Part shown: positions 5,236 through 51,807 of the stretch, one piece after another
How positions within the stretch are numbered: the first letter of the stretch is position 1
Layout of the letters: each line of letters starts with the position of its first letter
Origin: Sphingomonadales bacterium
GTDB lineage: Bacteria > Pseudomonadota > Alphaproteobacteria > Sphingomonadales > Govanellaceae
NCBI GenBank assembly: GCA_019455285.1
Contig: JACFMS010000005.1
Span: forward strand, 1 to 64,000
Length of the DNA stretch: 64,000 nt
Reading direction: 5' to 3'
Position numbers and translations under genes: made by a program
Notes under the pieces: generated by a model
Database searches by the model: none
Told to the model about the DNA's origin: nothing
What the model saw: the letters and a program-made list of their open reading frames with translations, nothing else

Positions 5236-5988
5236 TCAAGCTGTTGGGTTGGCGGGATGATCGGCGGGCGCATATTGCGCGCGCAGACGGTCGAACATGG
5301 CGAAGGAAGGCCTGGCTCTTATAGCATCCCACCAGGCGCAAGTTGCTGGAAGGTCCGACCAAACCGCTTCCTTTTCCAGTTGAACGAGGCGTCGGAAGTA
5401 GGGCGTCATGCCGAGATCAGCTAAACTGACGCCATCGCCCGCAAGCCATCGGGAACGGCTAAGGGCGGTTTCCATTGTCTCAACCAGGTTGCGAATTTTC
5501 GCAAGATAGTCTGCGAGCTCCTGATCGCTGTAGGGCGCTTCGGCGACGCGACGCCATAATGTTGCGATCTCCTTCTTGGGCGTGCGAGCCATAATGCCGT
5601 CAAGGTCCGCGCGGGAAAGTCTGGCCGCTCGCGGCGTGACAAACTTGGCAAAACTTATCGGTCGTATCGACGGGTGCAGAACATCATCAATCTGTTTGGT
5701 CCACCAGCGCATCCTGGCGCGGGCTGCCGGTGATGTAGGCCGCAGTTGGACCTCGGGAAAGGCATCCTCGAGATATTCATTGATGACGGTCGATTCGGTC
5801 ACGATGACATCGTCATGGACGAGGGCCGGCACGAGGCCCGCCGGATTGATGTCCAGATACCAGGGCTCAAGCTGCTCGAAGTTGCTGAGAACGAGATGGT
5901 GCGGCGTCCAGTCAATGCCCTTTTCCGTGAGGCATAATACAACCTTCTGCGCACAGACGGCGTTCCAGTTGAAATAGAGGCGCAACAT
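5236..5988 (-). CDS. glutathione S-transferase, LigF-like
   Basis: A 250-residue GST-fold protein, last gene of the minus-strand catabolic operon. The thioredoxin-like domain starts LRLYFNWNAVCAQKV, with Cys or Asn near the glutathione-activating position. The motifs INPAGLVPAL and TESTVINEYLED.FP resemble, from memory, beta-etherases of the LigF type from lignin-degrading sphingomonads. That resemblance is a family-level hint, not proof of activity. The ATG at 5988 has AGGAG 10 bp upstream, so the longer frame to 6030 is rejected. It starts 26 bp after the SDR stop, so it is probably co-transcribed. Confidence 0.85.
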   Translation of the reverse strand: MLRLYFNWNAVCAQKVVLCLTEKGIDWTPHHLVLSNFEQLEPWYLDINPAGLVPALVHDDVIVTESTVINEYLEDAFPEVQLRPTSPAARARMRWWTKQIDDVLHPSIRPISFAKFVTPRAARLSRADLDGIMARTPKKEIATLWRRVAEAPYSDQELADYLAKIRNLVETMETALSRSRWLAGDGVSLADLGMTPYFRRLVQLEKEAVWSDLPATCAWWDAIRARPSFAMFDRLRAQYAPADHPANPTA

Positions 5989-6014: not shown

Positions 6015-6782
6015 CTAGCGACCCGCCCAAAGCCCCTCATCAATGAGCAGCGTCGTGCCGTGCATGGCGTTCACTTCGCCGGAAACGAGGAAGTAGATGG
6101 CGGCGGCAATTTCCTCAGGCGGCGAATAGACACGGCCGCTCGGTGTCTGCGCCGCCTTGGCGGCAAGGGTCTCGGCGCTTCCCTTTCCCTGGCGATCGTT
6201 CTCGTTGAGGGGAGTGGCGGTGTTGCCCGGCGCTACGGCGTTGATATGAATGCCGTGCGGTGCAAGACTACCGACCAACGAGCGGGTGAGCATCATGATC
6301 GCCGCTTTGGTCGCAGCATAAAGCGGGTAGGACGACGAACCACGGAAGGCTGCGACCGACGCGAGACTGACGATATGTCCTCGGCGGCGCGGCCGCATGA
6401 CCTCGGCGACGGCGTCGATCGCGAAGAACGCTCCCTTAAGGTTGATATCAACCATGCGATCAAAATCTTCCTCATTGAGTTCCCCGAGCCGCGTCGGATA
6501 ATAGAGGCCGGCCGAATAGACCATAATCCCGATTGGACCGAGCGTGGCCTCAACCTCGGCGACGACGTGGCGAATCGAGGAAACGTTGCGCACATCGGCG
6601 ACGAAACCCTGCGCCGCGCCGCCCTCCCCGACGATCTCGGATGCAACCTGGTTAGCCTTGGCGACATCGTTGCTCGCAACGACCGCAACTGTTGCGCCCT
6701 CACGGCCCAGCCGCAAGGCGGTGGCCCTGCCGATGCCCGAACTGCCGCCAAAGATAAGCGCAACTTGACCTGTCAGCCTCAT
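6015..6782 (-). CDS. SDR family oxidoreductase
   Basis: A 255-residue short-chain dehydrogenase/reductase. The Rossmann motif GGSSGIGRAT lies near residue 12, the NNAG-equivalent is YSAG near residue 90, and the catalytic Ser-Tyr-Lys is seen as SLASVAA and YPLYAATKAA. A C-terminal IDEG motif is typical of classical SDRs. NAD(P)-dependent oxidation of an alcohol or reduction of a ketone is expected. Its start overlaps the end of the HyuB gene in an ATGA junction, so it is coupled to it. In context it may make or remove the ketone group handled by the HyuAB and BKACE enzymes. Confidence 0.9.
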   Translation of the reverse strand: MRLTGQVALIFGGSSGIGRATALRLGREGATVAVVASNDVAKANQVASEIVGEGGAAQGFVADVRNVSSIRHVVAEVEATLGPIGIMVYSAGLYYPTRLGELNEEDFDRMVDINLKGAFFAIDAVAEVMRPRRRGHIVSLASVAAFRGSSSYPLYAATKAAIMMLTRSLVGSLAPHGIHINAVAPGNTATPLNENDRQGKGSAETLAAKAAQTPSGRVYSPPEEIAAAIYFLVSGEVNAMHGTTLLIDEGLWAGR

Positions 6783-38159: not shown

Positions 38160-39575
38160 ATGCGGCGGGGCATCCTGAAGGCCCTCAAATCCAAATTGTC
38201 GGCGCGCCTCCTCATTCTGACGGCGGCCTTCGTGATGCTGGCCGAAGTGCTGATCTACGTGCCCTCCATCGCCCAATATCGCCGCACCTGGTTGGAGGAG
38301 CGGCTGGGCTCGGCGCAGATCGCGGCGCTCGCCTTGGAGGCAACATCCAGCCATATGCTGAGCGCCGATCTGGCGCGCGAGCTTTTGACCAACGCCGGCG
38401 TCGCGGCGGTGGTGCTAAAGCGCGGCGATGCGCGGCGGCTGATTTTGCGCGGCGACATGGCCATGGATATCGCCGTCATGTATGACCTGCGCGCCGCCCG
38501 GCCATGGACGCTGATCGGCGACGCTTTTGAAACTATGTTTCTGCTTGCTGACGACCGCCTGATCGAAGTGACGGGCAGCGCCCGCAAAGGCTCCGGCGAA
38601 TACGTGCAGATCATGCTCTATCCCGGCGAATTGAAGCGCGCCATGATCGACTACTCGCGCAATATCTTGCTGCTCTCCATCGTCATTTCACTGGTCACCG
38701 CCGGCTTGGTTTATGTGGCGCTCACCGGATTGATGGTGCGGCCCATTCGCCGCATCACCCACAGCGTGGTGGCGTTCCGGCAAGCGCCGGAAGCGCTCAC
38801 TTCACGCTTAAACCCTTCATTACGCAGCGACGAGATCGGCGTTGTCGAACGCGAGCTTGCCGCCATGCAGGCCGACCTCCAAACAGCGCTGACGCAAAAG
38901 ACGCGGCTCGCCAATCTCGGCGCGGCGGTAGCCAAGATCAATCACGATCTGCGCAACATCCTCGCCGGCGCGCAGCTGCTTTCCGATCGTCTCGCCACGG
39001 TGGAAGATCCCACGGTGCGCGCGCTGTCGCCACGCTTCATGCGCGCCATTGACCGCGCCATCAATCTGTGCGCGGCGACGCTGGCTTATGGCCGCGCGCC
39101 GGAGACGACCTTACAGCCGACATCGGTCAATCTGCACGCGCTGGTGATGGAGGTTGCCGCCGCGCTGGGCCTGACGCGGGAGGACGGCGGCAAGCTTCGC
39201 TTCTGCAATATGGTCGATGACGCCATGACCGTAATGGTCGACGGCGAACAGTTCTTCCGCGTGCTGATGAATTTATGCCGCAATGCCCGCGACGCCATCG
39301 AGGCCGCACCGGCAAAGGATGCGCCCTGCGATATTTACGTCACCGCGCGCCAGGATGACGCCGCCACGGTAATCGAGGTGTCGGATACCGGCCCCGGCCT
39401 GCCGGCCGCCGCACGCGCCCATCTGTTCGAGCCGTTTCGCGGCAGCGCCACCGCCGGCGGTAGCGGCTTGGGGCTCGCCATCGCCAAGGAAATCGTCGAG
39501 GCCCACGGCGGCGCTATCACGCTCATTGACAACGATGCTGCCGGCACGATGTTTCGCATCACGCTGCCGCGCTAA
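38160..39575 (+). CDS. sensor histidine kinase
   Basis: A 471-residue membrane histidine kinase. A first helix at about residues 15-35 and a second at about 170-195 enclose a periplasmic sensing region of some 135 residues. A HAMP domain (GLMVRPIRRITHSVVAFR) follows, then an H-box with KINHDLRNILAGAQLL, an N-box LCRNARDAI and G-boxes DTGPGLP and GGSGLGLAI. No response regulator gene is next to it in this window. ATG at 38160 lies 31 bp after the reductase. The longer frame through that gene is rejected. Confidence 0.92.
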   Translation: MRRGILKALKSKLSARLLILTAAFVMLAEVLIYVPSIAQYRRTWLEERLGSAQIAALALEATSSHMLSADLARELLTNAGVAAVVLKRGDARRLILRGDMAMDIAVMYDLRAARPWTLIGDAFETMFLLADDRLIEVTGSARKGSGEYVQIMLYPGELKRAMIDYSRNILLLSIVISLVTAGLVYVALTGLMVRPIRRITHSVVAFRQAPEALTSRLNPSLRSDEIGVVERELAAMQADLQTALTQKTRLANLGAAVAKINHDLRNILAGAQLLSDRLATVEDPTVRALSPRFMRAIDRAINLCAATLAYGRAPETTLQPTSVNLHALVMEVAAALGLTREDGGKLRFCNMVDDAMTVMVDGEQFFRVLMNLCRNARDAIEAAPAKDAPCDIYVTARQDDAATVIEVSDTGPGLPAAARAHLFEPFRGSATAGGSGLGLAIAKEIVEAHGGAITLIDNDAAGTMFRITLPR

Positions 39576-41339
39576 TCACTCCCCAATCGCCACGCCTTCG
39601 CGGCGTGGGTCGGCCCCGCCCTGCAGATGTCGGTCCCTGCCTTCGCCCACCACCATCACGCCGTGCAAGCCGCTGGCGATGCGACGCGTCGTGACGGTAT
39701 GGCCAAGCGCCCTTAGCGCCGGCGCGAGATCGGCGGGCGCGCCTTCCTCCAGGGTCAAGGGTCCGCCTGCGGCGATGAAGTTCGGCAATTCGATGGCGGC
39801 CTGAATATCAAGCTCCCAATCAAGAACGCCGATCAGCGTTTTGGCGACAAAGCCGATGATGGCGTTGCCGCCGGGCGAGCCGACGGCCAGCTCAAAGCGT
39901 CCGTCGCGATCAATTACGATGGTCGGCGACATCGAGCTGCGCGGCCGCTTGCCCGGCTCCACCCGATTGGCCACCGGCACGCCGTCGGCCATCGGCTCGA
40001 AGGCGAAATCAGTCAGCTGGTTATTGAGAAAGAAGCCATCCACGAAGAGGCGGCTGCCGAACGCGCTCTCGACGCTGGTGGTCATGGAAACCACCGCGCC
40101 CCTTTGATCCACCACCACGAAATGGCTGGTGGATGGCACTTCCGGGGTGGTTCCCGTCCCCCGGGGCGGCGCGCCGGGTGGTGTGCCGGGCGTAACCGTC
40201 GTCATGGCGCGCGTCGGGTCGATCAGCGCCGAGCGGGCTTTCAAATATTGCGCGTCGACGAGCCCCGCCGTCGGCACCATGACCTTGTCGGGATCGGCCA
40301 CATAACGGTCGCGGTCGGCGTAGGCCAGCCGCGAGGCCTCGACAATGAGATGCAGGGCGCGGGGCGACATTGGCTGTTCCGCCGCCAGATCGAACCGTTC
40401 AAGAAGCTTCAGGATCGCCAGCACCGTGCTGCCGCCGGAGGACGGCGGCCCCATGCCGCAGATTTTCCGATCGCGGTAGACGCCGCATAAGGGCGCGCGC
40501 TCCAGCGCCCGATAGGCGTTCAAGTCATCGAGCGACAGCGCGCCGGGATGGCGCGGTGCCTGTTTGACCGCACGCACCATGTGTTTGGCGATGCGGCCCT
40601 TATAGAACGCCTGTGGCCCATGGCGTTGAATGGCCCGCAAGGTAGCGGCATAGGCGGGATTCTTCAGGTTCGTTCCGGCGCTGAGCGCCTTGCCCGTCTG
40701 GTCGAACAAATAGCCCTTGGCGGCGGGAAAATCCCGCAGCAGCGGATCGCTGTCGGCCAAATATTGCAGCCGCGGCGAGACGATGAACCCATCCTCGGCG
40801 AGCTTGATCGCCGGCGCAAAGAGATCGCCCCACGGCAGGCGGCCATAGCGCTGATGGGCCAGCGCCAGCATGGCGACGACCCCGGGCGTACCCACCGAGC
40901 GGCCGCCGGCCACCGCCTCCAGATAACCTTCAAAGGTGCGCGGCGTGCCGGCAAACAGCAGCGGCGTGACGCCGGCGGGGGCGGTTTCGCGGCCATCGAC
41001 CGTGGTCAAGATCGGCGCGCCATTCTCCACCGGCGCGTAATAAAGCAGAAACGCGCCACCGCCGATCCCAGAGGATTGCGGCTCCACCAGCCCCAACACC
41101 AACTGCACGGCGATCGCCGCATCAACCGCGCCGCCGCCTTGCTTTAAGATCGCCAGCCCAGCCTCGGCGGCATAAGGGTTGGCCGCCGCCACCATCTCGT
41201 GATGCGCCACGCTCGGCGCCCGAGCCAGCACCGGACCATGGGCGAAAATCAGCGCCGCCAGCAGCAGACGCGACCAGACAATCCTCAAATGCCTTAACTC
41301 CGATTGACGCGGCGACGGAAACATCCGTAGCTTCTTCAA
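39576..41339 (-). CDS. ggt: gamma-glutamyltransferase
   Basis: A 587-residue periplasmic Ntn-hydrolase that transfers or hydrolyses gamma-glutamyl groups, for example of glutathione. A signal peptide (about residues 15-40, ending VLARAPS) precedes the large subunit. Autocleavage is expected before Thr404, in PSTSHFVVVD. The substrate motifs LGLVEPQSSGIGGGAF and RPRSSMSPTIV are intact. An ATG five codons in is an alternative start. The stop abuts the histidine kinase stop in a convergent arrangement, and it is divergent from the P1 peptidase. Confidence 0.94.
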   Translation of the reverse strand: MKKLRMFPSPRQSELRHLRIVWSRLLLAALIFAHGPVLARAPSVAHHEMVAAANPYAAEAGLAILKQGGGAVDAAIAVQLVLGLVEPQSSGIGGGAFLLYYAPVENGAPILTTVDGRETAPAGVTPLLFAGTPRTFEGYLEAVAGGRSVGTPGVVAMLALAHQRYGRLPWGDLFAPAIKLAEDGFIVSPRLQYLADSDPLLRDFPAAKGYLFDQTGKALSAGTNLKNPAYAATLRAIQRHGPQAFYKGRIAKHMVRAVKQAPRHPGALSLDDLNAYRALERAPLCGVYRDRKICGMGPPSSGGSTVLAILKLLERFDLAAEQPMSPRALHLIVEASRLAYADRDRYVADPDKVMVPTAGLVDAQYLKARSALIDPTRAMTTVTPGTPPGAPPRGTGTTPEVPSTSHFVVVDQRGAVVSMTTSVESAFGSRLFVDGFFLNNQLTDFAFEPMADGVPVANRVEPGKRPRSSMSPTIVIDRDGRFELAVGSPGGNAIIGFVAKTLIGVLDWELDIQAAIELPNFIAAGGPLTLEEGAPADLAPALRALGHTVTTRRIASGLHGVMVVGEGRDRHLQGGADPRREGVAIGE

Positions 41340-41367
41340 GTATCAGCGATAGAGGATCAAGGAACGC

Positions 41368-42381
41368 ATGGTCAAGCCGGGGCGACGCAATCTCATCACC
41401 GACGTGCCAGGCGTGCTGGTGGGCAACGCCGATGATGCCGCGGTGCGGACGGGGGTTAGCGTGATCCTGCCGACGCGGCCGGCGACGGTGGGCGTCGATG
41501 TGCGCGGCGGCGCGCCAGGCACCCGGGAGACCCCTGCCCTCGATCCGAATTGTCTGGTGGCGGAGGCGCACGCCATCGTGCTGGCCGGCGGTTCGGTGTT
41601 CGGCCTGGCGGCGGCGGACGCCGTGGCGGCGGCGCTCTCGGTGCGGGGCATCGGTCTCGCCCTCACCCCGCGCGCCGTGCCGGTGGTGCCGGCGGCGATC
41701 CTTTATGATCTGGGCAACGGCGGCGACAAGGCGTGGGGCGAGACCCCGCCTTATGTCGCATTGGGTCGCCAGGCGCTGGCGGCGGCCGGCGAAGTTTTCT
41801 CCCTAGGCAACGCCGGGGCCGGCTTCGGCGCCATCGCCGGCGCGCTGAAAGGCGGTCTGGGCAGCGCCTCGGCCGATTGCGGCGATGGCTTTATCGTCGG
41901 CGCGCTGATCGCCGTTAATGCTTTCGGCAGCGTCACCATGGATGAATCAGGATCGCTGTGGGCCGCCCCCTTCGAGCAAGGAGGGGAATTCGGCGCACTG
42001 CCCGCCCTTGCTTTACCGCGAAATGGCCAAGGGGTTTCGATGACGCCCGATCTTGCCAAGGCGGCGCTGCCGGCCGCCAATACCACCATCGGCGTCGTCG
42101 CCACCAATGCCCGGCTGACCAAAGCGGAAGCCGAACGTCTGGCCATCATGGCGCACGACGGCTTGGCCCGCGCCATCCGGCCGGTGCACACGCCGTTTGA
42201 CGGCGATACCCTGTTTGCTATGGCGACGGGGGAGCGGGAGCTGGGCGACAACCGGCCGCTGGCGTTGACCCGGCTTGGGGCGGTGGCCGCCGATTGCGTC
42301 GCCCGCGCCGTGGCGCATGGCGTGCTGGCCGCCAAGACCTTAGGTGAGGCCAAAGCCTACAGAGAGGTTTTCTTTAAATAG
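41368..42381 (+). CDS. P1 family peptidase (DmpA/NylC type)
   Basis: A 337-residue Ntn-fold hydrolase of the S58/DmpA family, which includes aminopeptidases that act on D- and beta-amino peptides, and nylon-oligomer hydrolase NylC. The N-terminal LITDVPGVLVGNADDAAVRTG and GGSVFGLAAADAV motifs are typical. Autocleavage is predicted between Asn238 and Thr239 in AANTTIGVVATNA, giving the nucleophilic Thr as in NylC. No signal peptide is seen. It begins 28 bp from ggt on the other strand and its 3' end overlaps the convergent lipoprotein gene by 25 bp. Confidence 0.9.
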   Translation: MVKPGRRNLITDVPGVLVGNADDAAVRTGVSVILPTRPATVGVDVRGGAPGTRETPALDPNCLVAEAHAIVLAGGSVFGLAAADAVAAALSVRGIGLALTPRAVPVVPAAILYDLGNGGDKAWGETPPYVALGRQALAAAGEVFSLGNAGAGFGAIAGALKGGLGSASADCGDGFIVGALIAVNAFGSVTMDESGSLWAAPFEQGGEFGALPALALPRNGQGVSMTPDLAKAALPAANTTIGVVATNARLTKAEAERLAIMAHDGLARAIRPVHTPFDGDTLFAMATGERELGDNRPLALTRLGAVAADCVARAVAHGVLAAKTLGEAKAYREVFFK

Positions 42382-43220
42382 ATCGCCACCGCCACGGCTT
42401 CGCCATCCGGCGTTACGGCGATGGCGGTCTGATCATAACCGACGCCCGATGCCTTGAGCGCCCGCAATACCTGGCGCAGCGCCGCCTGTTCCTCGGCCCG
42501 CGCCGCCGCCGGTCCGCGGGCGATGATGTCGAAGGCGACATCGGGCACTTGCGCCTTAAGGGCGCGCACCGCTGCCTTCAGCTTGGCCTCGAACGCCGGC
42601 GCTGGCTTGGCGAACCTGATCTCGGCAAAGGCGGTGCGGTTCTGCGCGTCGATGGCGTTGGGGCCGGGTTCACCCACCGCCGCCGGCGTCAACACCGCCA
42701 GGCGGTTCTGTTCGCCGTAAAGCCGCTGCCGCCAAAGTCCCAGCGCGCCATCCACGGCGGCCACCAGGTGGCCCACCTCCTGCAGCTCAGCACCGGCGTC
42801 GGGAATTGCGATCAAGGGCGCGGCGAAGGCTGTCACCTCGTCATTGAGCGCCCGCAGATCGTCGATCTCGGCGCTCAAGCGGCTCAAGGCTGACTGCGCG
42901 CCGCTCCACGCCTCAGCAAAATAGGGCGTGTCCGGCGCTTGCCCCAGGTGGCGGTCCAGCATCGCCTCATAAACGCCCAGAGTGCCTTGCAGGGTGGCCC
43001 GCTGGTCATCAAAGCGGGTGCGGAAGGCCGCAAGCCTGGCGCGATCGACCGCCGGCGCAATGGCAGGCGCGGGGCTTTCCTCAGCCGCGCCGCCGGCGGC
43101 CGGCGCCACCGCGCTCACCGGTCGCTCCACCGCCCCCAAATGCGGCCACGCGCCTTGGGCGCAGCCCATGAGGAGGAGCGTCAGCGCAAGTGGAACGAAG
43201 CTGTGTCGGCGACTGGTCAT
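42357..43220 (-). CDS. hypothetical lipoprotein
   Basis: A 287-residue protein with a lipoprotein signal: LALTLLLMGC, acylated Cys at residue 20. An Ala/Pro-rich spacer (about 30-55) and a helical region (about 57-190) are followed by a C-terminal part with EIRFAKPAPAFEAKLKAAV and GVGYDQTAIAVTPDGEAVAVAIYL, which has the alternating look of an OmpA-like or secretin-like alpha/beta fold. I do not recognise the family. It is convergent with the P1 peptidase. The predicted place is the inner face of the outer membrane. Confidence 0.7.
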   Translation of the reverse strand: MTSRRHSFVPLALTLLLMGCAQGAWPHLGAVERPVSAVAPAAGGAAEESPAPAIAPAVDRARLAAFRTRFDDQRATLQGTLGVYEAMLDRHLGQAPDTPYFAEAWSGAQSALSRLSAEIDDLRALNDEVTAFAAPLIAIPDAGAELQEVGHLVAAVDGALGLWRQRLYGEQNRLAVLTPAAVGEPGPNAIDAQNRTAFAEIRFAKPAPAFEAKLKAAVRALKAQVPDVAFDIIARGPAAARAEEQAALRQVLRALKASGVGYDQTAIAVTPDGEAVAVAIYLKKTSL

Positions 43221-43328
43221 CAGGGCGGACTTTAGCCATTCCCCCCCGTCGCCACAAGCGCCGGGAAGGGCTTGCCATTTAGGGAAGATGCGGCTAGGTT
43301 CGCCGCCTGCTTGCCATCAAGGCCAAGG

Positions 43329-43405
43329 GCGCCCGTAGCTCAGCTGGATAGAGCACCAGACTACGAATCTGGGGGTCAGGAGTTCGAATCTCTTCGGGCG
43401 CGCCA
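43329..43405 (+). tRNA. tRNA-Arg (ACG)
   Basis: A 77-nt tRNA with encoded CCA. The acceptor GCGCCCG pairs with CGGGCGC, the D arm is GCTC/GAGC, the anticodon arm CAGACTACGAATCTG has anticodon ACG at 43363-43365, and the T loop is TTCGAAT. ACG is read as ICG after deamination. The segment downstream is AT-richer and holds accessory genes, so this tRNA is a likely integration site. Confidence 0.97.
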
Positions 43406-43442
43406 TTTTGATTTTATTGAATATTTTCGCCTTTTTGGGTAT

Positions 43443-43460
43443 CCCCTATAAAATCCCCCA
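43443..43460 (+). other. candidate recombinase arm-site motif beside tRNA-Arg
   Basis: CCCCTA, six A/T bases, then CCCCCA occurs 38 bp downstream of the tRNA-Arg 3' end. The same arrangement with identical spacing occurs at 55900-55917, just inside the left edge of the tRNA-Leu island. Motifs of this style near tRNA-borne attachment sites may be binding sites of the lost integrase. Confidence 0.4.
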
Positions 43461-43516
43461 AAATGCCGCTAGCAAGCGCATGAGCGGTTTGTATTCAAGA
43501 TAAAACACCCCTGTCA

Positions 43517-43560
43517 TGCCCGCTTTAGGCGGGCAGCCGGTCTTTTATAAAATAGACCGG
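43517..43560. repeat. paired hairpins (REP-like)
   Basis: Two adjoining hairpins lie between tRNA-Arg and the first accessory gene. One is TGCCCGC/GCGGGCA (43517-43535, loop 5). The other is CCGGTCT/AGACCGG (43537-43560, loop 10 and AT-rich). The first resembles the REP-like element at 27-44. They could end the tRNA transcript or be part of a dispersed repeat unit. The rest of the 163-bp gap shows no gene. Confidence 0.55.
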
Positions 43561-43568
43561 ACTCCCGC

Positions 43569-43760
43569 TCATAGGCTTCTGGGACCGCGATGGCATTCAA
43601 TCCAAACGTTCAAGCTCGCCCATTTGTGGATGATGCACAGCCTAATTTTAAGAAAATAAGCGGGCGCGTTGCCGTGAGGTTGTTTGTTGATGAGGGTACC
43701 GGCTGCGAGTTTAGTGTATCCCACCGTTTCGCCGGTAGTGTAATGGTCAGTTTCAGACAT
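43569..43760 (-). CDS. small HTH protein, AlpA/excisionase-like
   Basis: A 63-residue protein. The stretch YTTGETVGYTKLAAGTLIN, then GNAPAYFLKIRLCIIHK and a final LNVWIE, follows the pattern of HTH_17/AlpA-type excisionases (T-x-E-x-A-x-Y ... TL.. .G.GP.F.K.GR.V.Y ... L..W). The basic GRR segment is altered to IRLC, so it may be decayed. ATG at 43760 has GGAGA 9 bp upstream. Such proteins usually accompany an integrase on mobile elements; none remains here. A 77-residue frame on the other strand (43590-43823) is the less convincing alternative. Confidence 0.5.
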   Translation of the reverse strand: MSETDHYTTGETVGYTKLAAGTLINKQPHGNAPAYFLKIRLCIIHKWASLNVWIECHRGPRSL

Positions 43761-43860
43761 TCCATTCATTCTCCATATCATTGCCGGATAATCCCGGCTG
43801 GTATAGAGAAAGATGAGATATAATGTTTGCCCGAAAAAGATGCCTGAAATTTGCCCAAAA

Positions 43861-44922
43861 TTATAATTTCGGGCAGGTCTTAGCTCGAACTAATGGCCCT
43901 ATTTTGTTACGGATGGTCTTTGCTTTTGGCTTTTGGGGTGCATTTACGTGATTTAATCTCACCCATTCCTCAAGCGCATTGGCCTCAGCTTGCTGGCTTC
44001 CTGCGTATTCATTCGCCATCCAACGACGCTCAAATTCTTGTAATACAAGGTCCATTATGGACGGACGTCCTGGTAACCCTGCCTTGTAGGAATACCCGTG
44101 AGGAAACCGCATATTCAGCGGCGGAAAAGCTTTCAGAAGTTCAGCACAATTCACACGAACGTCTATAAAATGCGGAAATACTTTATCTGTTGGATACATT
44201 CTATCGATATGGCTAAATCTACAAAAAGCCATGCACTCCATATCCGATAAGATGTGGGGAATTGTTTTTGGTTGACTATCCATATCAGCTACGTAGCGGC
44301 CAGATATGCGAATATGCCCGCCTGCAGCTTTTTTAGTCAACAACACGCATGCCTCTTTAAGGCGTGCTTCAGATTCCGAACATGAAAGCCCAAAGTAGCC
44401 AGGGCCTGGTACTTGACCATATTGATTTGCGGAAATCGAATGCTTGAATCCTATCCATGTGACCGCCTCAGTTAAAGTAATCCAGTCCTCATCAGGAGGA
44501 AGACGGGGTTCTGGGTTGCTGCTAATTGCATCAAGCCAGGCAATAAACGGCCCCTTGCGTGTTATCAGTACTTGGCCATTATATTTTGCCATTGAGTCAT
44601 CTAAGAAAGATTGGCAATTATCCCCGGAAAAGGTACGTTCAGGCCAATGGCTGTCGCGCCAATGTTCCGGTAAAACACGATCGGGCTGGTTCCAATCATC
44701 CAGCCAGTAGAATACGTCTAGCCCCCCACTTTCGGCTCCTATTCTTTGACTCAGAAGAGAGCTGAGCGACTGATAAAGTTCTTCGTTAAATTTCCGATTA
44801 GGGCAATTAAAATTACTGTCATCAAATTGACGGGGTGCGGGAAATTGACCGAAAGGTAGGCGTTCGACAAGGAGGGAAAACGCTTCTTTCAACGTTATAA
44901 AGCCATCCGGCACACGGTTCAT
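43861..44922 (-). CDS. hypothetical accessory protein
   Basis: A 353-residue protein of unknown function in an AT-richer segment unlike the surrounding genome. Two similar segments, FITLKEAFSLL at the N-terminus and WITLTEAVTWIGF near residue 130, suggest an internal repeat. The C-terminal 90 residues, with PGRPSIMDLVLQEFERR and a final KTIRNKIGPLVR, look like a tail found, from memory, on many uncharacterised alphaproteobacterial island proteins. No signal peptide, membrane segment or catalytic motif is seen. ATG at 44922 follows a G-rich stretch; a longer frame to 45102 overlaps the antitoxin gene and is rejected. Confidence 0.7.
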   Translation of the reverse strand: MNRVPDGFITLKEAFSLLVERLPFGQFPAPRQFDDSNFNCPNRKFNEELYQSLSSLLSQRIGAESGGLDVFYWLDDWNQPDRVLPEHWRDSHWPERTFSGDNCQSFLDDSMAKYNGQVLITRKGPFIAWLDAISSNPEPRLPPDEDWITLTEAVTWIGFKHSISANQYGQVPGPGYFGLSCSESEARLKEACVLLTKKAAGGHIRISGRYVADMDSQPKTIPHILSDMECMAFCRFSHIDRMYPTDKVFPHFIDVRVNCAELLKAFPPLNMRFPHGYSYKAGLPGRPSIMDLVLQEFERRWMANEYAGSQQAEANALEEWVRLNHVNAPQKPKAKTIRNKIGPLVRAKTCPKL

Positions 44923-45020
44923 ACCGCCCCCCCGCACATCCTGCCCGCATGTAAGATTGGCGCGGCGGTCCCGTGCGGTACGGGATGTTCGGCGGCCAAA
45001 CCTTGCCGCGCCAGTTCGGA

Positions 45021-45305
45021 TTAACCCGCCCGCACAAACCGGATGGTGGGGCGCAAGCCGGTGGCCTTGGCGTAGCCTTCCAACGTTTTCTTGCTCGGCC
45101 AATGCTTGCCGCTTTCAATGCGGGCGATGGCGCTTTGCGTGGTGCCCATGCGCTTGGCCAGTTCGCCTTGGCTCAAGCCTGCCCTAGCGCGTGCCTCGAT
45201 GAGCGCGGCGGCGATTTCAAATTCCTCCGCCATATCATCGTAGGCTTTTTTCACCGCCGGGTTTTTCAGCATCTCTTTCTTGAGCTTGGAAAACGGCACG
45301 GTCAC
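45021..45305 (-). CDS. higA: HigA-type antitoxin (XRE family)
   Basis: A 94-residue antitoxin with a C-terminal XRE helix-turn-helix: GLSQGELAKRMGTTQSAIAR with IESGKHWPS. The N-terminal half is a helical region likely to hold the toxin. It follows the toxin gene with an ATGA overlap, the usual toxin-first order of HigBA modules. It would repress its own operon through the HTH. It sits in the accessory segment downstream of tRNA-Arg. Confidence 0.88.
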   Translation of the reverse strand: MTVPFSKLKKEMLKNPAVKKAYDDMAEEFEIAAALIEARARAGLSQGELAKRMGTTQSAIARIESGKHWPSKKTLEGYAKATGLRPTIRFVRAG

Positions 45306-45649
45306 GATTCAATCTCCTTCAATCGCCGCAAGGCCAAGTCGATTTCCTGGCGGGGCGTTTTTTGGGTTTTCTTCACGAAAGCCCGCAACAAAATCAGCTT
45401 GCGCTCCATCAGGGCCGCATACATCACGCGGGAAATGCCCGCCTTGCCCGACAGCCGGATTTCCCAAATCCTGCCTTCCAGGTGCCGGGTGTAGGGCATA
45501 CCCACCTTGTGCGGCCCCCATACCTCCAACAGTTCGGCAATCCGCCACAGCCGGGCTTGCATGTCCGCCGGAAGGGCAAGGATTTCCGCCTCCACCTTCG
45601 CGTTGAGGCATTCGACCTTCCATATAGCATCTTTGCTATGTCTGGGCAA
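45302..45649 (-). CDS. higB: HigB/Gp49-like toxin (RelE superfamily)
   Basis: A 115-residue toxin of the phage Gp49-like branch of the RelE/HigB superfamily. Family features are LPADMQARLWRIAELLE, MPYTRHLEGRIWEIRLSG, SRVMYAALMERKLILLRAFVKKTQKTP and a C-terminal LALRRLKEIE. These toxins cleave mRNA on the ribosome. TTG at 45649 was chosen because GGGGAGG lies 6-8 bp upstream; the ATG at 45670 lacks a ribosome site. Its stop overlaps the antitoxin start. The gene begins within the tail of a decayed antidote gene. Confidence 0.85.
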   Translation of the reverse strand: MPRHSKDAIWKVECLNAKVEAEILALPADMQARLWRIAELLEVWGPHKVGMPYTRHLEGRIWEIRLSGKAGISRVMYAALMERKLILLRAFVKKTQKTPRQEIDLALRRLKEIES

Positions 45650-45879
45650 GACGTTCCTCCCCCCTTCCAAGTGGCATCTATATGCTTCCAGATCCCGTCA
45701 TGCGGCTTTATCCCCATGCCCCGCGCCTTGGCTACGTCCGCCAGCGCCATCAGGAACACATCGGAGTTTGGGTCTTGAGCGGCAACGTCCAGATAGTCCA
45801 GCATCATGGCCGGATTTTTCAGATAGTCGGACCCGTCAAAGGACCGAAACTTTTGCGCCGCTGGCTTTGCTTTGGCCAT
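45650..45879 (-). pseudogene. truncated addiction-module antidote protein
   Basis: The first 60 codons match the probable addiction module antidote family: FDGSDYLKNPAMMLDYLDVA then FLMALADVAKARGM. The helix-turn-helix that should follow ARGM is absent; the frame instead continues IKPHDGIWKHIDATW and runs into the HigB gene in another frame. It starts 3 bp after the stop of the toxin fragment, as in intact killer/antidote pairs. I read it as a module destroyed by deletion or by arrival of higBA. Confidence 0.65.
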
Positions 45880-45882
45880 GCT

Positions 45883-46017
45883 TCAATCCTTTCCCAAACG
45901 TCGCGCCATGTCCCCAAAATTTCCCGCTTCGATTGAACGAATACAGGCAACGGCCCGGTCATCCTTCAAGCCCTTAAGCCAGTCATCGAATTCATCGCTG
46001 CGCAGTATCGTATAATT
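45883..46017 (-). pseudogene. fragment of RelE/HigB-type killer protein
   Basis: A 44-codon frame reads NYTILRSDEFDDWLKGLKDD then RAVACIRSIEAGNFGDMARR before a stop. This matches the first half of the addiction module killer protein family (about 100 residues), with a short internal gap and a broken end after GNFGD. No good start codon precedes it. Its partner fragment follows directly. The pair is non-functional. Confidence 0.65.
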
Positions 46018-46049
46018 GCCGTCCTGTATCCAATAGGATACAGGACGGC
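46018..46049. promoter_or_regulatory. 14-bp perfect inverted repeat
   Basis: GCCGTCCTGTATCC and its exact complement are separated by AATA. It lies at the 5' edge of the decayed killer/antidote pair, where the self-repression operator of such operons is found. It could be the surviving operator, or a hairpin that ends transcription entering from the right. Confidence 0.5.
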
Positions 46050-46112
46050 ATGGGGCAAATTGGGCGATTGATGGGTAGGTTAATCTTCAGATGGACTTGG
46101 CCACAGCGGGCA

Positions 46113-47318
46113 TCACGCCATCTGGCCGGAGATGATCTGCTGATAAAGGATGGGGTCGGTTGCGCCCTCGGATCCCACGATCAATATCTCCGCGTTCCGA
46201 TCAAGCCTCAGCGATCGCATAATCTCCGGCCGAGAGGCAGCGGCCAATAGAAACGCCAGGCCAGCCACCGCCGATTCTCCGGCCTCAATCGAAGGGTCGC
46301 CATAGGGGCTTCGCGCCAGCAGGCGCATGGTTTCGGGAACGCCGGCGTCGGGAATGGTGGCGAAACTATCCGCGCCCTTCGCGAGTACCGCCCACGCCAG
46401 ATGCGATGGTTCGCCGCAGGCAAGCCCGGCCATGATGGTGTCCAACGCGCCATGGACCGTGGCGGGCGCGCCGATGAGCGCGCTTTGATAAAGGCAATCG
46501 GCCTTATCCGGTTCGATCACCAGAAACTGCGGACGCTGGGCGCCGAACGTCATCCAAAAGTGCGCCAGCACGGCGGCCGCCAACCCGCCGACGCCGCCTT
46601 GCACGAAAACATGGCTGAGTTGGCCGCCAATCCGGTCGATAATTTCGCCCGACATGACCGTATAGCCGGCCATGACATAGCGTGGAATATCCGTATAGCC
46701 GGGATAAGAGGTATCGGAGACGACGATCCGGTTATATGTCGCCGCATCCTGCGCGGCATGGCGCACCGAGTCGTCGTAATTTCCCTTGCAACGCACAATC
46801 TCGGCGCCGAAAGCTTCGATCGCCTTTTGCCGCTCCAGGCTGACGCCCTCGTGCAGATAGATGACGCAGCGACAGCTCAGCATCTGGCAGCCCCAGGCGA
46901 CGGAGCGGCCATGGTTGCCGTCGGTGGCGCAAGTCACCGTGACGGTGCAGGCAAGATTTCGCACGCGCTCGCTACTGAGGATATCGCGTTCGTTGATGTC
47001 AACTTTTGCGCCATCGGCGGCGAGTATATCCATCAGGATGCGAAAGACGGCGTAAGCGCCGCCCAGGGCCTTGAAGCTGCGTAAGCCAAAGCGCGCGCTC
47101 TCATCCTTGTACCAAACTTTTTTCACGCCGACGGCGCGCGCCAAGCCATCAAGACTGATGAGCGGCGTTTCTCCATATCCAGGCCAGCGCCTGATGATGG
47201 CGCGCGCTTCCTCCAGCATCTTTTCACTAAGAATGTCTCTTAATGACTCAGGATAAGACGTGCTGCAATTGATGCTGGCGTTGGCGTAAAGTTGGGAGAT
47301 TTGAAATTGCTCGGACAA
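46113..47318 (-). CDS. dpaL: diaminopropionate ammonia-lyase
   Basis: A 401-residue PLP enzyme of fold type II that converts 2,3-diaminopropionate to pyruvate and two ammonia. The PLP lysine is Lys83, in RFGLRSFKALGG, a motif diagnostic of this family; the glycine-rich phosphate loop is QGGVGGLAAAV and TCATDGNHGRSVAWG is also typical. Length is normal. It stands alone beside the tRNA-Arg accessory segment, and no transporter or regulator for the substrate is adjacent. It may mark the right flank of that segment or be part of it. Confidence 0.92.
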   Translation of the reverse strand: MSEQFQISQLYANASINCSTSYPESLRDILSEKMLEEARAIIRRWPGYGETPLISLDGLARAVGVKKVWYKDESARFGLRSFKALGGAYAVFRILMDILAADGAKVDINERDILSSERVRNLACTVTVTCATDGNHGRSVAWGCQMLSCRCVIYLHEGVSLERQKAIEAFGAEIVRCKGNYDDSVRHAAQDAATYNRIVVSDTSYPGYTDIPRYVMAGYTVMSGEIIDRIGGQLSHVFVQGGVGGLAAAVLAHFWMTFGAQRPQFLVIEPDKADCLYQSALIGAPATVHGALDTIMAGLACGEPSHLAWAVLAKGADSFATIPDAGVPETMRLLARSPYGDPSIEAGESAVAGLAFLLAAASRPEIMRSLRLDRNAEILIVGSEGATDPILYQQIISGQMA

Positions 47319-47323
47319 TTTAA

Positions 47324-47427
47324 TTATCTTTCATCCCGGCTCATCCTGGAAAGGCTGCCAATCCAATAAAGCACGCCGCAATGCGGCGGCGGAAGGCTGC
47401 GCATATCGGACGAGAGATGAAAGATAA
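47324..47427. repeat. 12-bp inverted repeat bounding an 80-bp segment
   Basis: TTATCTTTCATC (47324-47335) and GATGAAAGATAA (47416-47427) are exact complements separated by 80 bp, in the gap upstream of dpaL. The inside holds a small GC palindrome (CCGCAATGCGG). It could be a regulatory dyad for dpaL or a tiny mobile-element remnant. The 155-bp gap shows no gene. Confidence 0.45.
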
Positions 47428-47473
47428 ACAGATGGTCGCCCCCGTCCCCCGTCAAAGGGATGGGAGCTTTTAG

Positions 47474-48112
47474 TTAGCCACGCCGGCGGATCAGCGCCAG
47501 CGCGATCATGCTGATCCCCAGAAGTCCGAGCATGCCCGGCTCCGGCGTTTGCGCGATTTCAAAGCTGCTTAAAGTGCCAACCGCGGTGCCGGGCAGCCCA
47601 AGATTGTCCATGAAATTAAAGGTGATCGAGCGGATCTCGAAATCGCTGAGCGGCGGAAAGCTCAAAGGCAGAGAGGCATCGGCAAACACCGTCCCCTGGC
47701 TGTCTTGCAGCACCATGGACATGCTGGTCACGGTGACATTGGGGATGGTGTCGACGATCCCGGCGTTAAGATTAAGCGAGAATGAATCGAGGCCGGGGCC
47801 GACGTTGTTCTGCACCCGCAGACGGTTGGTGCCGCCGCCCGGCGAGGCGAGACCGGCGACGCCGAACGATACGCTGACGGCGTCCGGCAGATATTGGCAG
47901 TTGTTGGTGCAGGCTGCGATGGGGGCTTGCGGAACGTTATAACTCAGGCTGCCCGTAAACGGCGATCCCGGACCATAGCCATCGATGGTATTGCCGGCAT
48001 TCAGCGTCCCGGCAAAGTTAAACGTCAGCAGGGCCGCGCTGGCCGGAGCGGCGAAGCTCATGGCAAGCATGGCGCCCGCCATAAATACGATCTGTTTCAT
48101 CATCTGGCGCAT
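47474..48112 (-). CDS. PEP-CTERM sorting domain protein
   Basis: A 212-residue exported protein. A signal peptide (about residues 1-28, ending APASAALLTFNF) is followed by a beta-rich body and a C-terminal PEP-CTERM anchor: TPEPGMLGLLGISMIALAL, then RRRG. This tail is recognised by exosortase and marks proteins for the envelope, usually with exopolysaccharide. ATG at 48112 has GAGGAGG 5 bp upstream. No exosortase is in this window. The body is not a family I recognise beyond a choice-of-anchor style. Confidence 0.85.
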   Translation of the reverse strand: MRQMMKQIVFMAGAMLAMSFAAPASAALLTFNFAGTLNAGNTIDGYGPGSPFTGSLSYNVPQAPIAACTNNCQYLPDAVSVSFGVAGLASPGGGTNRLRVQNNVGPGLDSFSLNLNAGIVDTIPNVTVTSMSMVLQDSQGTVFADASLPLSFPPLSDFEIRSITFNFMDNLGLPGTAVGTLSSFEIAQTPEPGMLGLLGISMIALALIRRRG

Positions 48113-48283
48113 GCCGGCCTCCTCGGGAGCTTGAATATCCACCAACCCTACTATGCCTTTTTTCCTATGCAAGCTTTGTGCCGGCCATTAAAAATCAATT
48201 ACTAAGCAGATTTTGCCGCTGTTCCTAAGCTTCAAGTTGTAAAAAAAAAGCGACACGTCAGCCGCCGTTTTTCCGGTGAATTC

Positions 48284-48592
48284 TTACGCTCCTGGCGCGT
48301 CCGGTAAGGAATTCGCGCAGCAGTTTTCCGTCATGAACGCCAGGAGCGCGCGCATCGTCTCGTAGCGCGCGGCATAGATGACCGAGCGTCCAGCCCGCCG
48401 CGCGGTCACCAGTTCGGCGTGGCTGAGAATGGTGAGAGCGGCGGTCAGGGTATTGGGGCGCACCGCGAGCCGCCGCGCCAACTCGCCCGCCGCCATTCCC
48501 GCCGGTCCCGCCTGCACCAGCAGTCGAAAGGCGGCCAGACGGGTGTCATTGGCCAGGGCGCTTAAGCCGGTGATTGCAGATTTTATTTCCAT
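48284..48592 (-). CDS. ArsR-family transcriptional regulator
   Basis: A 102-residue winged-helix regulator. It has SALANDTRLAAFRLLVQAG, MAAGELARRLAVRPNTLTAAL as the recognition region, and an AGRSVIYAARYE wing. A vicinal cysteine pair near the C-terminus (ENCCANS) may bind metalloid or metal, as in some ArsR proteins. ATG at 48592 was chosen by family start; the longer frame to 48667 is rejected. It is divergent from the ATP-grasp-like gene and probably controls it. Confidence 0.85.
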   Translation of the reverse strand: MEIKSAITGLSALANDTRLAAFRLLVQAGPAGMAAGELARRLAVRPNTLTAALTILSHAELVTARRAGRSVIYAARYETMRALLAFMTENCCANSLPDAPGA

Positions 48593-50297: not shown

Positions 50298-50708
50298 ACC
50301 AGTACCTCCGCATAGAGTAGTCGATCAACGTGCGAAGCGTAAGTTACCGGTCGAAACCCGAGAGATCAGCCATTGTCAGCTACCTGACACCGGCGGCAGT
50401 CAGGGGTCGAAATCCAGAACGCGCTCAGCCCCGACAGGTGACGTGAGGGTCGTTGTTTTGTCAAGCGGAATCGCTAGCCGGCGTTTCCGAATGGTTCTGG
50501 ACGCCACCCACTAAGTCATTCATATTTATGGAAAAATACGACTTTTATTTACCCTTTGCTGACCATCTTCCGCCCTATTTCCACCATCTTTCGCCGTGAC
50601 CCTGAAGGTCTGGGTAACGGGGCCAGAGAACTGGACATCCACGGATATGCCGACCTCAAGCTGGACAAAACGTCCCAACAGGCCGGCGGAAAGGTTTAGG
50701 TGACACCC
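50298..50708. other. gene-free interval between divergent genes
   Basis: A 411-bp interval holds the promoters of the cold-shock gene (minus) and the coiled-coil gene (plus). A small inverted repeat GTCAG-CTAC-CTGAC occurs around 50377. A short TTG-started plus-strand frame (50556-50699, 47 codons) ends 9 bp before the next gene; it has no recognisable features and I do not call it a gene. Confidence 0.5.
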
Positions 50709-51668
50709 ATGTTCAAGAAGCCCCTGCATGTTTTCTTATTGACCAGCGCCATGGCGGCCGGCGTGCCTTTCGGCGCTGCCCTTGCCGAGAACGGCGCCTC
50801 AAATGACGTTTTTTATGACAAGACCCGCCTCATCGATACCGCCCTGGCCGACGACCAGGCGGAGCTTGATGCCGCCCAAGCGGCGGTCGATTCCGCTCAG
50901 GCAACATTTGATGCGGCAAATGCCGAGCTTTCCGCCTTGCAGGATCAGATCGCCGGCCTGAGCGCGGATGATCCCGGTTTGACTGAGCTGCAAGCACAAG
51001 CGGACGCCTTGCAAGATAAGATCGATCATGAACTCAGCCCCGCGTTGAGCGAGGCGCAAGGCGAGTTGAGCGAAACGCAGGCGGGCTTTGATGCCGAACA
51101 GGCTTTGCTGGCAAACGAAGTGGATAACCTTTCCAGTGACCAGCTTTTCGCTTTCAACCGGTCGCTGAACAATGCCGTGGCGCAGGGCTTGATTGTCAAT
51201 CTGGATGCCGAGGATCTGCAAGCGGCCATCGATGGCGACTATGACAAACATCAGATCAACGCCTTAACCAAAGCGCTGGAAGAAGAAGCTAAATTCCTCA
51301 GCCGCGCGGATATGTTTGAGCAAAAGGCGGCTGAAACCGGCGACGTTAAATTCCTGGAGAAGGCCGACAGGATGCGTGATCGCGCCGAGGAGCAAAAGGA
51401 ACGCTTCCTGGCCAAGCTCGAAAATGATCACGATTCTAATCACGATGACGCGCAAGCAGCCAAGGATGCCCGCGACGCCGCCAAGGCGGCAAACGAAGCC
51501 GCCAGAGAAGCCGCCAAGGAACAGCATGAAATAGCCCGGGAAGCCGCCAAGGACGCCCAAGAAGCCGCGAAAGAGGCGGCGCAGGAAGCGCGCGAAGCGG
51601 CGAAGGAAGCGCAAGAGGCGGCTCGGGAAGCCGCAAAAGAGGCGGCAAAAATGGCCGCCAAGGATTAG
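50709..51668 (+). CDS. exported coiled-coil protein with Ala/Glu/Lys repeats
   Basis: A 319-residue predicted exported protein. A signal peptide covers about residues 1-26 (ending GAALAE). Residues 35-130 form a predicted coiled coil rich in Ala, Asp and Gln. After a middle region (FAFNRSLNNAVAQGLIVNL), a His/Asp stretch (DHDSNHDD) leads to an about 75-residue tail of AAKE/EAAR repeats that should be one long charged helix. A GTG nine bases upstream is an alternative start. It may span or stiffen the envelope. I do not recognise a family. Confidence 0.75.
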   Translation: MFKKPLHVFLLTSAMAAGVPFGAALAENGASNDVFYDKTRLIDTALADDQAELDAAQAAVDSAQATFDAANAELSALQDQIAGLSADDPGLTELQAQADALQDKIDHELSPALSEAQGELSETQAGFDAEQALLANEVDNLSSDQLFAFNRSLNNAVAQGLIVNLDAEDLQAAIDGDYDKHQINALTKALEEEAKFLSRADMFEQKAAETGDVKFLEKADRMRDRAEEQKERFLAKLENDHDSNHDDAQAAKDARDAAKAANEAAREAAKEQHEIAREAAKDAQEAAKEAAQEAREAAKEAQEAAREAAKEAAKMAAKD

Positions 51669-51677
51669 CGCGCGCCA

Positions 51678-51716
51678 GCGGCCGGTCTGCGTCTGCGGCC
51701 CGGCCGCATCTTCTTA
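51678..51716 (+). terminator. possible terminator after coiled-coil gene
   Basis: An 8-bp GC stem (GCGGCCGG/CCGGCCGC, loop 14) is followed by ATCTTCTTA, 10 bp after the stop. The T content is low, so termination may be partial. Confidence 0.45.
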
Positions 51717-51807
51717 GCGATGACAAAGATTTCTCTCTTATGCCCAACCAATAACACGCCCAATGCGATGCGGCCATAAAACTTAAACTTTTGGATGGGG
51801 AACAGTC

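Follow-up and report, generated by a model that had tools for sequence, protein, structure and literature searches.

A probable immobilised remnant of a small tRNA-targeted integrative element with a retained higBA pair in a Sphingomonadales genome

The window analysed here is a stretch of 64,000 nucleotides (G000:C57:1-64000) from the 57-contig genome of a Sphingomonadales bacterium (G000). Directly behind its tRNA-Arg(ACG) gene it harbors a segment that is very probably the immobilised remnant of a small (~5-6 kb) tRNA-targeted integrative element, which was inserted a long time ago and has retained an intact higBA toxin-antitoxin (TA) pair. The tRNA-Arg(ACG) gene is located at 43329-43405 on the plus strand, and its last 46 bases (43360-43405), which represent attL here, are identical with the attachment (att) core that is duplicated in the intact element of a relative. 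Behind this gene the GC content falls from 0.668 (38300-43328, left of tRNA-Arg) to 0.462 (43406-44930), as the original prediction, made from the sequence alone, had noticed. Among 631 sliding 1-kb windows across the 64 kb, ten have a GC content below 0.50, all of them starting between 43201 and 44101, and the lowest-GC stretch of the 64 kb lies directly behind tRNA-Arg. Read in minus direction, the remnant consists of higB, higA, a gene for a protein of 353 amino acids (aa) and a frame resembling AlpA-like regulator genes.

The strongest evidence comes from G001, the sole same-genus genome among 60 relatives found (contig QEVO01000001.1 of the metagenome-assembled genome “Proteobacteria bacterium isolate PRO5”). 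Its tRNA-Arg locus aligns with the window on the left (41197-43464) at 90% and on the right (45714-48369) at 86% identity (blastn), with more blocks on the right up to 54.7 kb and a 48-bp match between both sequences. At the same tRNA-Arg, G001 has a complete element of 6.02 kb, bounded by exact repeats (46 bp) of the tRNA 3′ end at a distance of 6,022 bp. This bears out the earlier claim that an accessory segment was inserted at the tRNA-Arg 3′ end. The first gene of this element encodes a tyrosine integrase with an arm-binding domain and is followed by higB, higA, a 121-aa gene and a 415-aa gene, and the remaining genes encode an HTH_17/AlpA-like, a winged-helix (HTH_91), a PC4-like and a Rep-like protein. 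The HTH_17 score of 25.1 bits is slightly below the cut-off of 27 bits, and the Rep-like protein reaches 25.8 bits with REP_ORF2-G2P against a Pfam cut-off of 27.8. The profiles matched are HTH_17 and REP_ORF2-G2P, for which we presume the names “AlpA” and “HUH”.

Of this element, the window has kept approximately 80 bp of the left end (43406-43484), which align to the corresponding terminus in G001, where the element is intact. As already stated in the original prediction, the segment contains neither an integrase gene, which is present in the elements of G001 and of G002, a relative introduced below, nor a second tRNA-Arg end, as a 30-mer search allowing three mismatches found one site in the whole genome, the tRNA itself. 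Likewise, tblastn between 40 and 52 kb (E ≤ 1) gave no trace of the G001 integrase, Rep, PC4, HTH_91 or 121-aa proteins. Since the second tRNA repeat is absent in G000, we classify the segment, which lacks a direct repeat at its other border as well as an integrase, as a remnant rather than as an element. The missing integrase and att repeat would also fit an ordinary TA locus of the chromosome that has no mobile past and lies next to the tRNA gene by coincidence. However, such an origin is extremely improbable, given that G001 harbors at this very tRNA an intact element complete with integrase, Rep-like gene and att repeats, that G002 has the same gene set at a tRNA-Lys gene, and that the segment is low in GC.

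G002 belongs to another genus of the same family and harbors its element at another tRNA gene, tRNA-Lys(CTT), where two exact 46-bp repeats are spaced by 4,656 bp; the gene order is the same. Its higB is 53% identical to that of the window, with 81% for higA, and compared to G001 its integrase is 67%, its AlpA-like protein 46%, HTH_91 70% and Rep 60% identical. The original prediction had proposed a comparison with relatives lacking the insertion, and indeed the tRNA-Arg loci of G002 and G003, two relatives of the same family, contain none of the searched element proteins at E ≤ 1e-4. The left neighbours are kept at these loci, namely a lipoprotein-like gene in both genomes and a peptidase S58 gene in G002. 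Within the G002 element, a second copy (94%) of the final 90 bp of the integrase gene is present beyond higBA (L024, 9849-9938 and 10639-10728), as if the TA pair had arrived together with a second integrase 3′ end. Like known tRNA-targeted integrative elements and genomic islands, the G001 copy has repeats of the tRNA 3′ end, an integrase beside one att site, an HTH_17/AlpA-like factor and variable cargo. The window copy differs from them in having no integrase and no attR, and the two closest intact relatives differ in being very small (4.66 and 6.02 kb) and in carrying a Rep-like gene.

The retained pair consists of the toxin gene higB (45302-45649, minus strand; 115 aa; Pfam Gp49, 4.2e-26), with the start codon TTG at 45649 after a GGAGG motif, and the antitoxin gene higA (45021-45305, minus strand; 94 aa; Pfam HTH_3, 1.7e-14), where HTH stands for helix-turn-helix. 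The prediction of an intact HigBA pair next to a gene of no labelled family was therefore right. The toxin gene comes first and encodes a Gp49/RelE-type toxin followed by an HTH_3 antitoxin, as in the type II system HigBA, whose solved example 6af3 is matched by HigB with E 7e-12 and, more weakly, by HigA with 6.5e-5; a difference to this system is that in the intact elements the pair comes immediately after the integrase. In PADLOC, HigB matches NsnC profiles partially, with residues 61-114 only (1.4e-8), and HigA matches several HTH profiles; we take both as shared small domains. HigB should thus be a RelE-type toxin neutralised by HigA in an ordinary type II module. Relatives of HigB are frequent on plasmids, with matches in 1,059 of 72,556 records (E ≤ 1e-10, every one below 60% identity), and the pair itself is therefore ordinary.

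At the right side, the alignment with G001 breaks off at the start of higB (45641) and resumes in the middle of an HI1420-type antidote gene (45714). Between these points G001 has 2,418 bp, which comprise the integrase, attR and an additional killer/antidote pair, and the window has 72 bp (45642-45713) without clear counterpart, a part of which is weakly similar to the 3′ end of the G001 integrase gene. This junction marks the loss of integrase and attR, a net loss of ~2.35 kb that includes half of the neighbouring antidote gene. The 72 bp hold GGAGG and most of the sequence preceding the TTG start of higB. According to the original prediction higB starts inside the antidote gene, which is correct for the open frames, but the start homologous to that of G001 is TTG 45649, in the residual sequence between the genes. 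As the junction is known from the assembly alone, and as the corresponding stretch of G001 is repetitive (a copy of the tRNA end and two similar antidote genes), an assembly error might have dropped integrase and attR. This is nevertheless very improbable, because the region lies in the interior of a 166.8-kb contig with synteny on both sides, the junction is filled by 72 bp of other sequence, and no close copy of the missing integrase (the integrases elsewhere in G000 are only distant, the best with 35% over 159 aa) and no Rep relative at E ≤ 1e-10 is found in the genome.

The antidote gene beyond the junction (45714-45879, minus strand) is the first half of a flanking gene that was cut by the deletion. 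It covers positions 3-47 of 90 of the HI1420 profile in Pfam (score 32.7, cut-off 27) and 1-46 of 89 in NCBIfam (30 bits, cut-off 53.7, residues 10-55 only) and does not encode a complete antidote with a C-terminal HTH. Its G001 counterpart is complete (99 aa) and is found outside attR, next to another killer/antidote pair in convergent orientation. Next to it, the window contains a fragment of a killer gene (45907-46008, minus strand), which is shortened in G001 as well (L009, 8556-8669) and ends at an identical position in the two genomes, and therefore it was probably shortened before window and G001 split. Because the pair is located outside attR in G001, with a complete antidote and a shared killer stop, it can be regarded as flanking DNA that is older than or independent of the element. 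Hence, the killer/antidote pair is broken as had been predicted, but it is not cargo, and the right border, originally suspected near 46.1 kb or beyond dpaL, has to be placed at ~45.65-45.71 kb. Accordingly, the supposed layering of TA genes within one segment has to be replaced by a deletion that brought the higBA of the element against a flanking module, and serial insertion in one island is not necessary. Similar to the HI1419/HI1420 addiction module (TIGR02684), the two flanking antidotes of G001 exceed the NCBIfam cut-off; the differences are that the window antidote is only half and that the killers are truncated or interrupted. Antidotes seem to outlast killers at this place, as G001 has two complete antidote genes near the shared killer fragment.

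The left part of the remnant is less conserved. The predicted excisionase-like HTH gene can be recognized as a minus-strand frame (43569-43781, 70 aa open), which shares 39% identity with the HTH_17 protein of the G002 element across 61 aa (E 5e-14, single comparison). However, it looks decayed, since it matches neither the AlpA-like protein of G001 nor Pfam HTH_17. The plus-strand open reading frame (ORF) at 43590-43823 was rejected as excisionase, as it has no match in Pfam, PHROGs or PADLOC and the antisense frame matches the AlpA-like protein of G002. The 353-aa gene (43861-44922, minus strand) encodes a protein without match in Pfam, PHROGs, NCBIfam or PADLOC and is distantly homologous to the 415-aa gene that occupies the corresponding slot in G001. 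Relatives of the 353-aa protein occur in 3 of 296 genomes of the order, the window included, and at six loci in a named genome collection (G001 being one), with an integrase match nearby at all six and a Rep match at three. No match to the 353-aa protein was found in plasmids, and none to the 415-aa protein in phages. A class-wide profile search (2-row alignment; 385 genomes, at most four candidates each scored, G001 possibly outside the sample) returned the window itself only (1 of 385), which weakly suggests that the gene is rare. An AlphaFold2 model of the protein from seven sequences is of low confidence (mean predicted local distance difference test score 57.8), and its lack of a PDB match at E ≤ 0.001 is not meaningful at this confidence.

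The age of the insertion can be estimated from the synonymous divergence (dS) between window and G001, which is 0.32 for higA and 0.31 for higB and 0.21-0.36 for five flanking genes. With dN/dS values of 0.058 (higA) and 0.056 (higB), compared to 0.14-0.29 for the other six stretches, higBA is the lowest of the eight. This is consistent with one old insertion that was inherited by both lineages and in which higBA was kept under selection. Several points weigh against this history. The antidote half (56 codons) has a lower dS of 0.14, the selection estimate for higBA sums both branches and does not separate the periods before and after immobilisation, and the comparison rests on one same-genus genome. 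The 72-bp junction scores 30 against the integrase 3′ end (99th percentile of 1000 shuffles, 26), but a score of 30 is also attained by no fewer than 5% of 200 shuffles when the whole element is the target, so that the 72 bp are not clearly integrase-derived and such a descent is suggestive only. Moreover, the cores of the 353-aa and 415-aa proteins are no more than 35-39% identical and the AlpA-like genes have no mutual match, and therefore the interior would have been at least partly exchanged or the elements were not identical. These last two observations, together with the resemblance of the AlpA remnant to the G002 element instead of that of G001, would be explained by two related but separate insertions, in which this tRNA-Arg was entered in each lineage by a different element of one family and that of the window decayed independently. 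We consider this unlikely, as the DNA of higBA is 93% identical, with a dS within the range of the flanking genes, and conservation extends to the left end and to the spacer that precedes the 353-aa gene (spacer 89.5% over 86 columns).

Under a single old insertion, the element, in circular form, would have been inserted at the tRNA-Arg 3′ end through recombination by a tyrosine integrase, which left the 46-bp duplicate at the far side, where the repeats are seen in G001. Most likely, this happened before the species of the window and G001 split. In the lineage of the window, the rep, PC4-like and winged-helix genes would then have been lost on the left side and alpA would have decayed, and on the right side a deletion would have taken half of the adjacent antidote gene together with attR and the integrase. 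As it has neither of the latter two, the remnant should be unable to excise by its own route. Judging from the protein families, loss of the segment would leave a stable toxin without fresh antitoxin, and deletion of the remnant would be penalised. It is most likely that higBA persists since its loss harms the cell. TA modules that stabilise integrated elements have been reported with MosAT on SXT (PMC2654960) and HipAB on CGI48 (PMC8978831). Like these, higBA of the window is located inside an integrated element and possibly favours its retention; however, their elements are described as still excising, whereas the TA pair of the window has neither integrase nor second att site. Promoter and terminator scans gave site numbers no higher than in shuffles.

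Apart from the element, two side observations concern the loci flanking it. The gene dpaL (46113-47318), encoding a PALP-family enzyme, is patchily distributed (19 of 99 genomes of the order at E ≤ 1e-40, not in G002 or G003), and may therefore be an older accessory gene or layer to the right. Further right, where an ArsR-like regulator gene ends, G001 has an extra Gln/Met-rich ORF of 170 aa (L009, 5595-6107), flanked by a 57-bp duplication (96%) of the regulator end (5470-5524 and 6214-6270); the aligned window locus (48314-48369) does not have this ORF, and ~1.1 kb of the window (50654-51743) are without counterpart in the aligned G001 locus.

A Rep-like protein is present in 25 of 296 genomes of the order. 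Of 29 Rep-like places among the matches listed, 22 were examined (20 fetched, plus G001 and G002). An integrase match was found at 20 of them (18 by tblastn, two more by Pfam), a tRNA gene at 19, and a direct repeat overlapping a tRNA 3′ end at seven, two of these repeats being only 19 bp and a pair of whole tRNA-Ser genes in L062 being left out. higBA occurs in two of the 22, G001 and G002. Out of six homologues, those of G002 (30.0) and L054 (31.7) exceed the REP_ORF2-G2P cut-off, three are below it (27.4, 24.7 and 19.6) and one has no match. A 4,328-bp plasmid of Sphingopyxis terrae (L065, NZ_CP013343.1) contains a Rep-like homologue (2097-2888) beside its own RepA and a recombinase, a possible plasmid link; as this plasmid has its own RepA, “Rep” is used here as a family name for a putative function. 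Filamentous prophages were rejected as an explanation of the elements, since no virion genes were recognised in the ORF lists of G001, G002, L046, L047, L054-L056 and L070, part of which were Pfam-scanned. The Rep-like protein had no match in the phages collection, and a scan of IMG/VR with exact peptides of one sequence reaches close relatives only. Among sphingomonads, the Sphingobium plasmid pPDL2 is described as carrying an integrase and attP and as being like an integrative mobilizable element (PMC3516476). By this description it resembles the present elements in combining replication with site-specific integration, but it has 37 kb. A named description of such elements was not found in titles and abstract openings of the open-access literature with narrow terms, and the family may nevertheless have been described already.

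Tentatively, the remnant could belong to a family, so far without a name, of Sphingomonadales elements that are very small, replicate themselves and integrate at tRNA genes, with the order integrase, cargo, AlpA-like, winged helix/PC4 and Rep-like, in which the cargo on the integrase side is a TA pair and/or a protein of the 353-aa type; in this case the cargo would have outlived the element and would have been kept by selection after mobility was lost. For Sphingomonadales, the finding points to a compact group of elements integrated at tRNA genes and to a recurrent protein of the 353-aa type. Moreover, the window and G001 form a clear pair of a decayed and a complete copy, in which mobility was lost and the TA pair stayed intact and conserved, and thereby provide a concrete case for asking whether TA modules protect their own segment from deletion.

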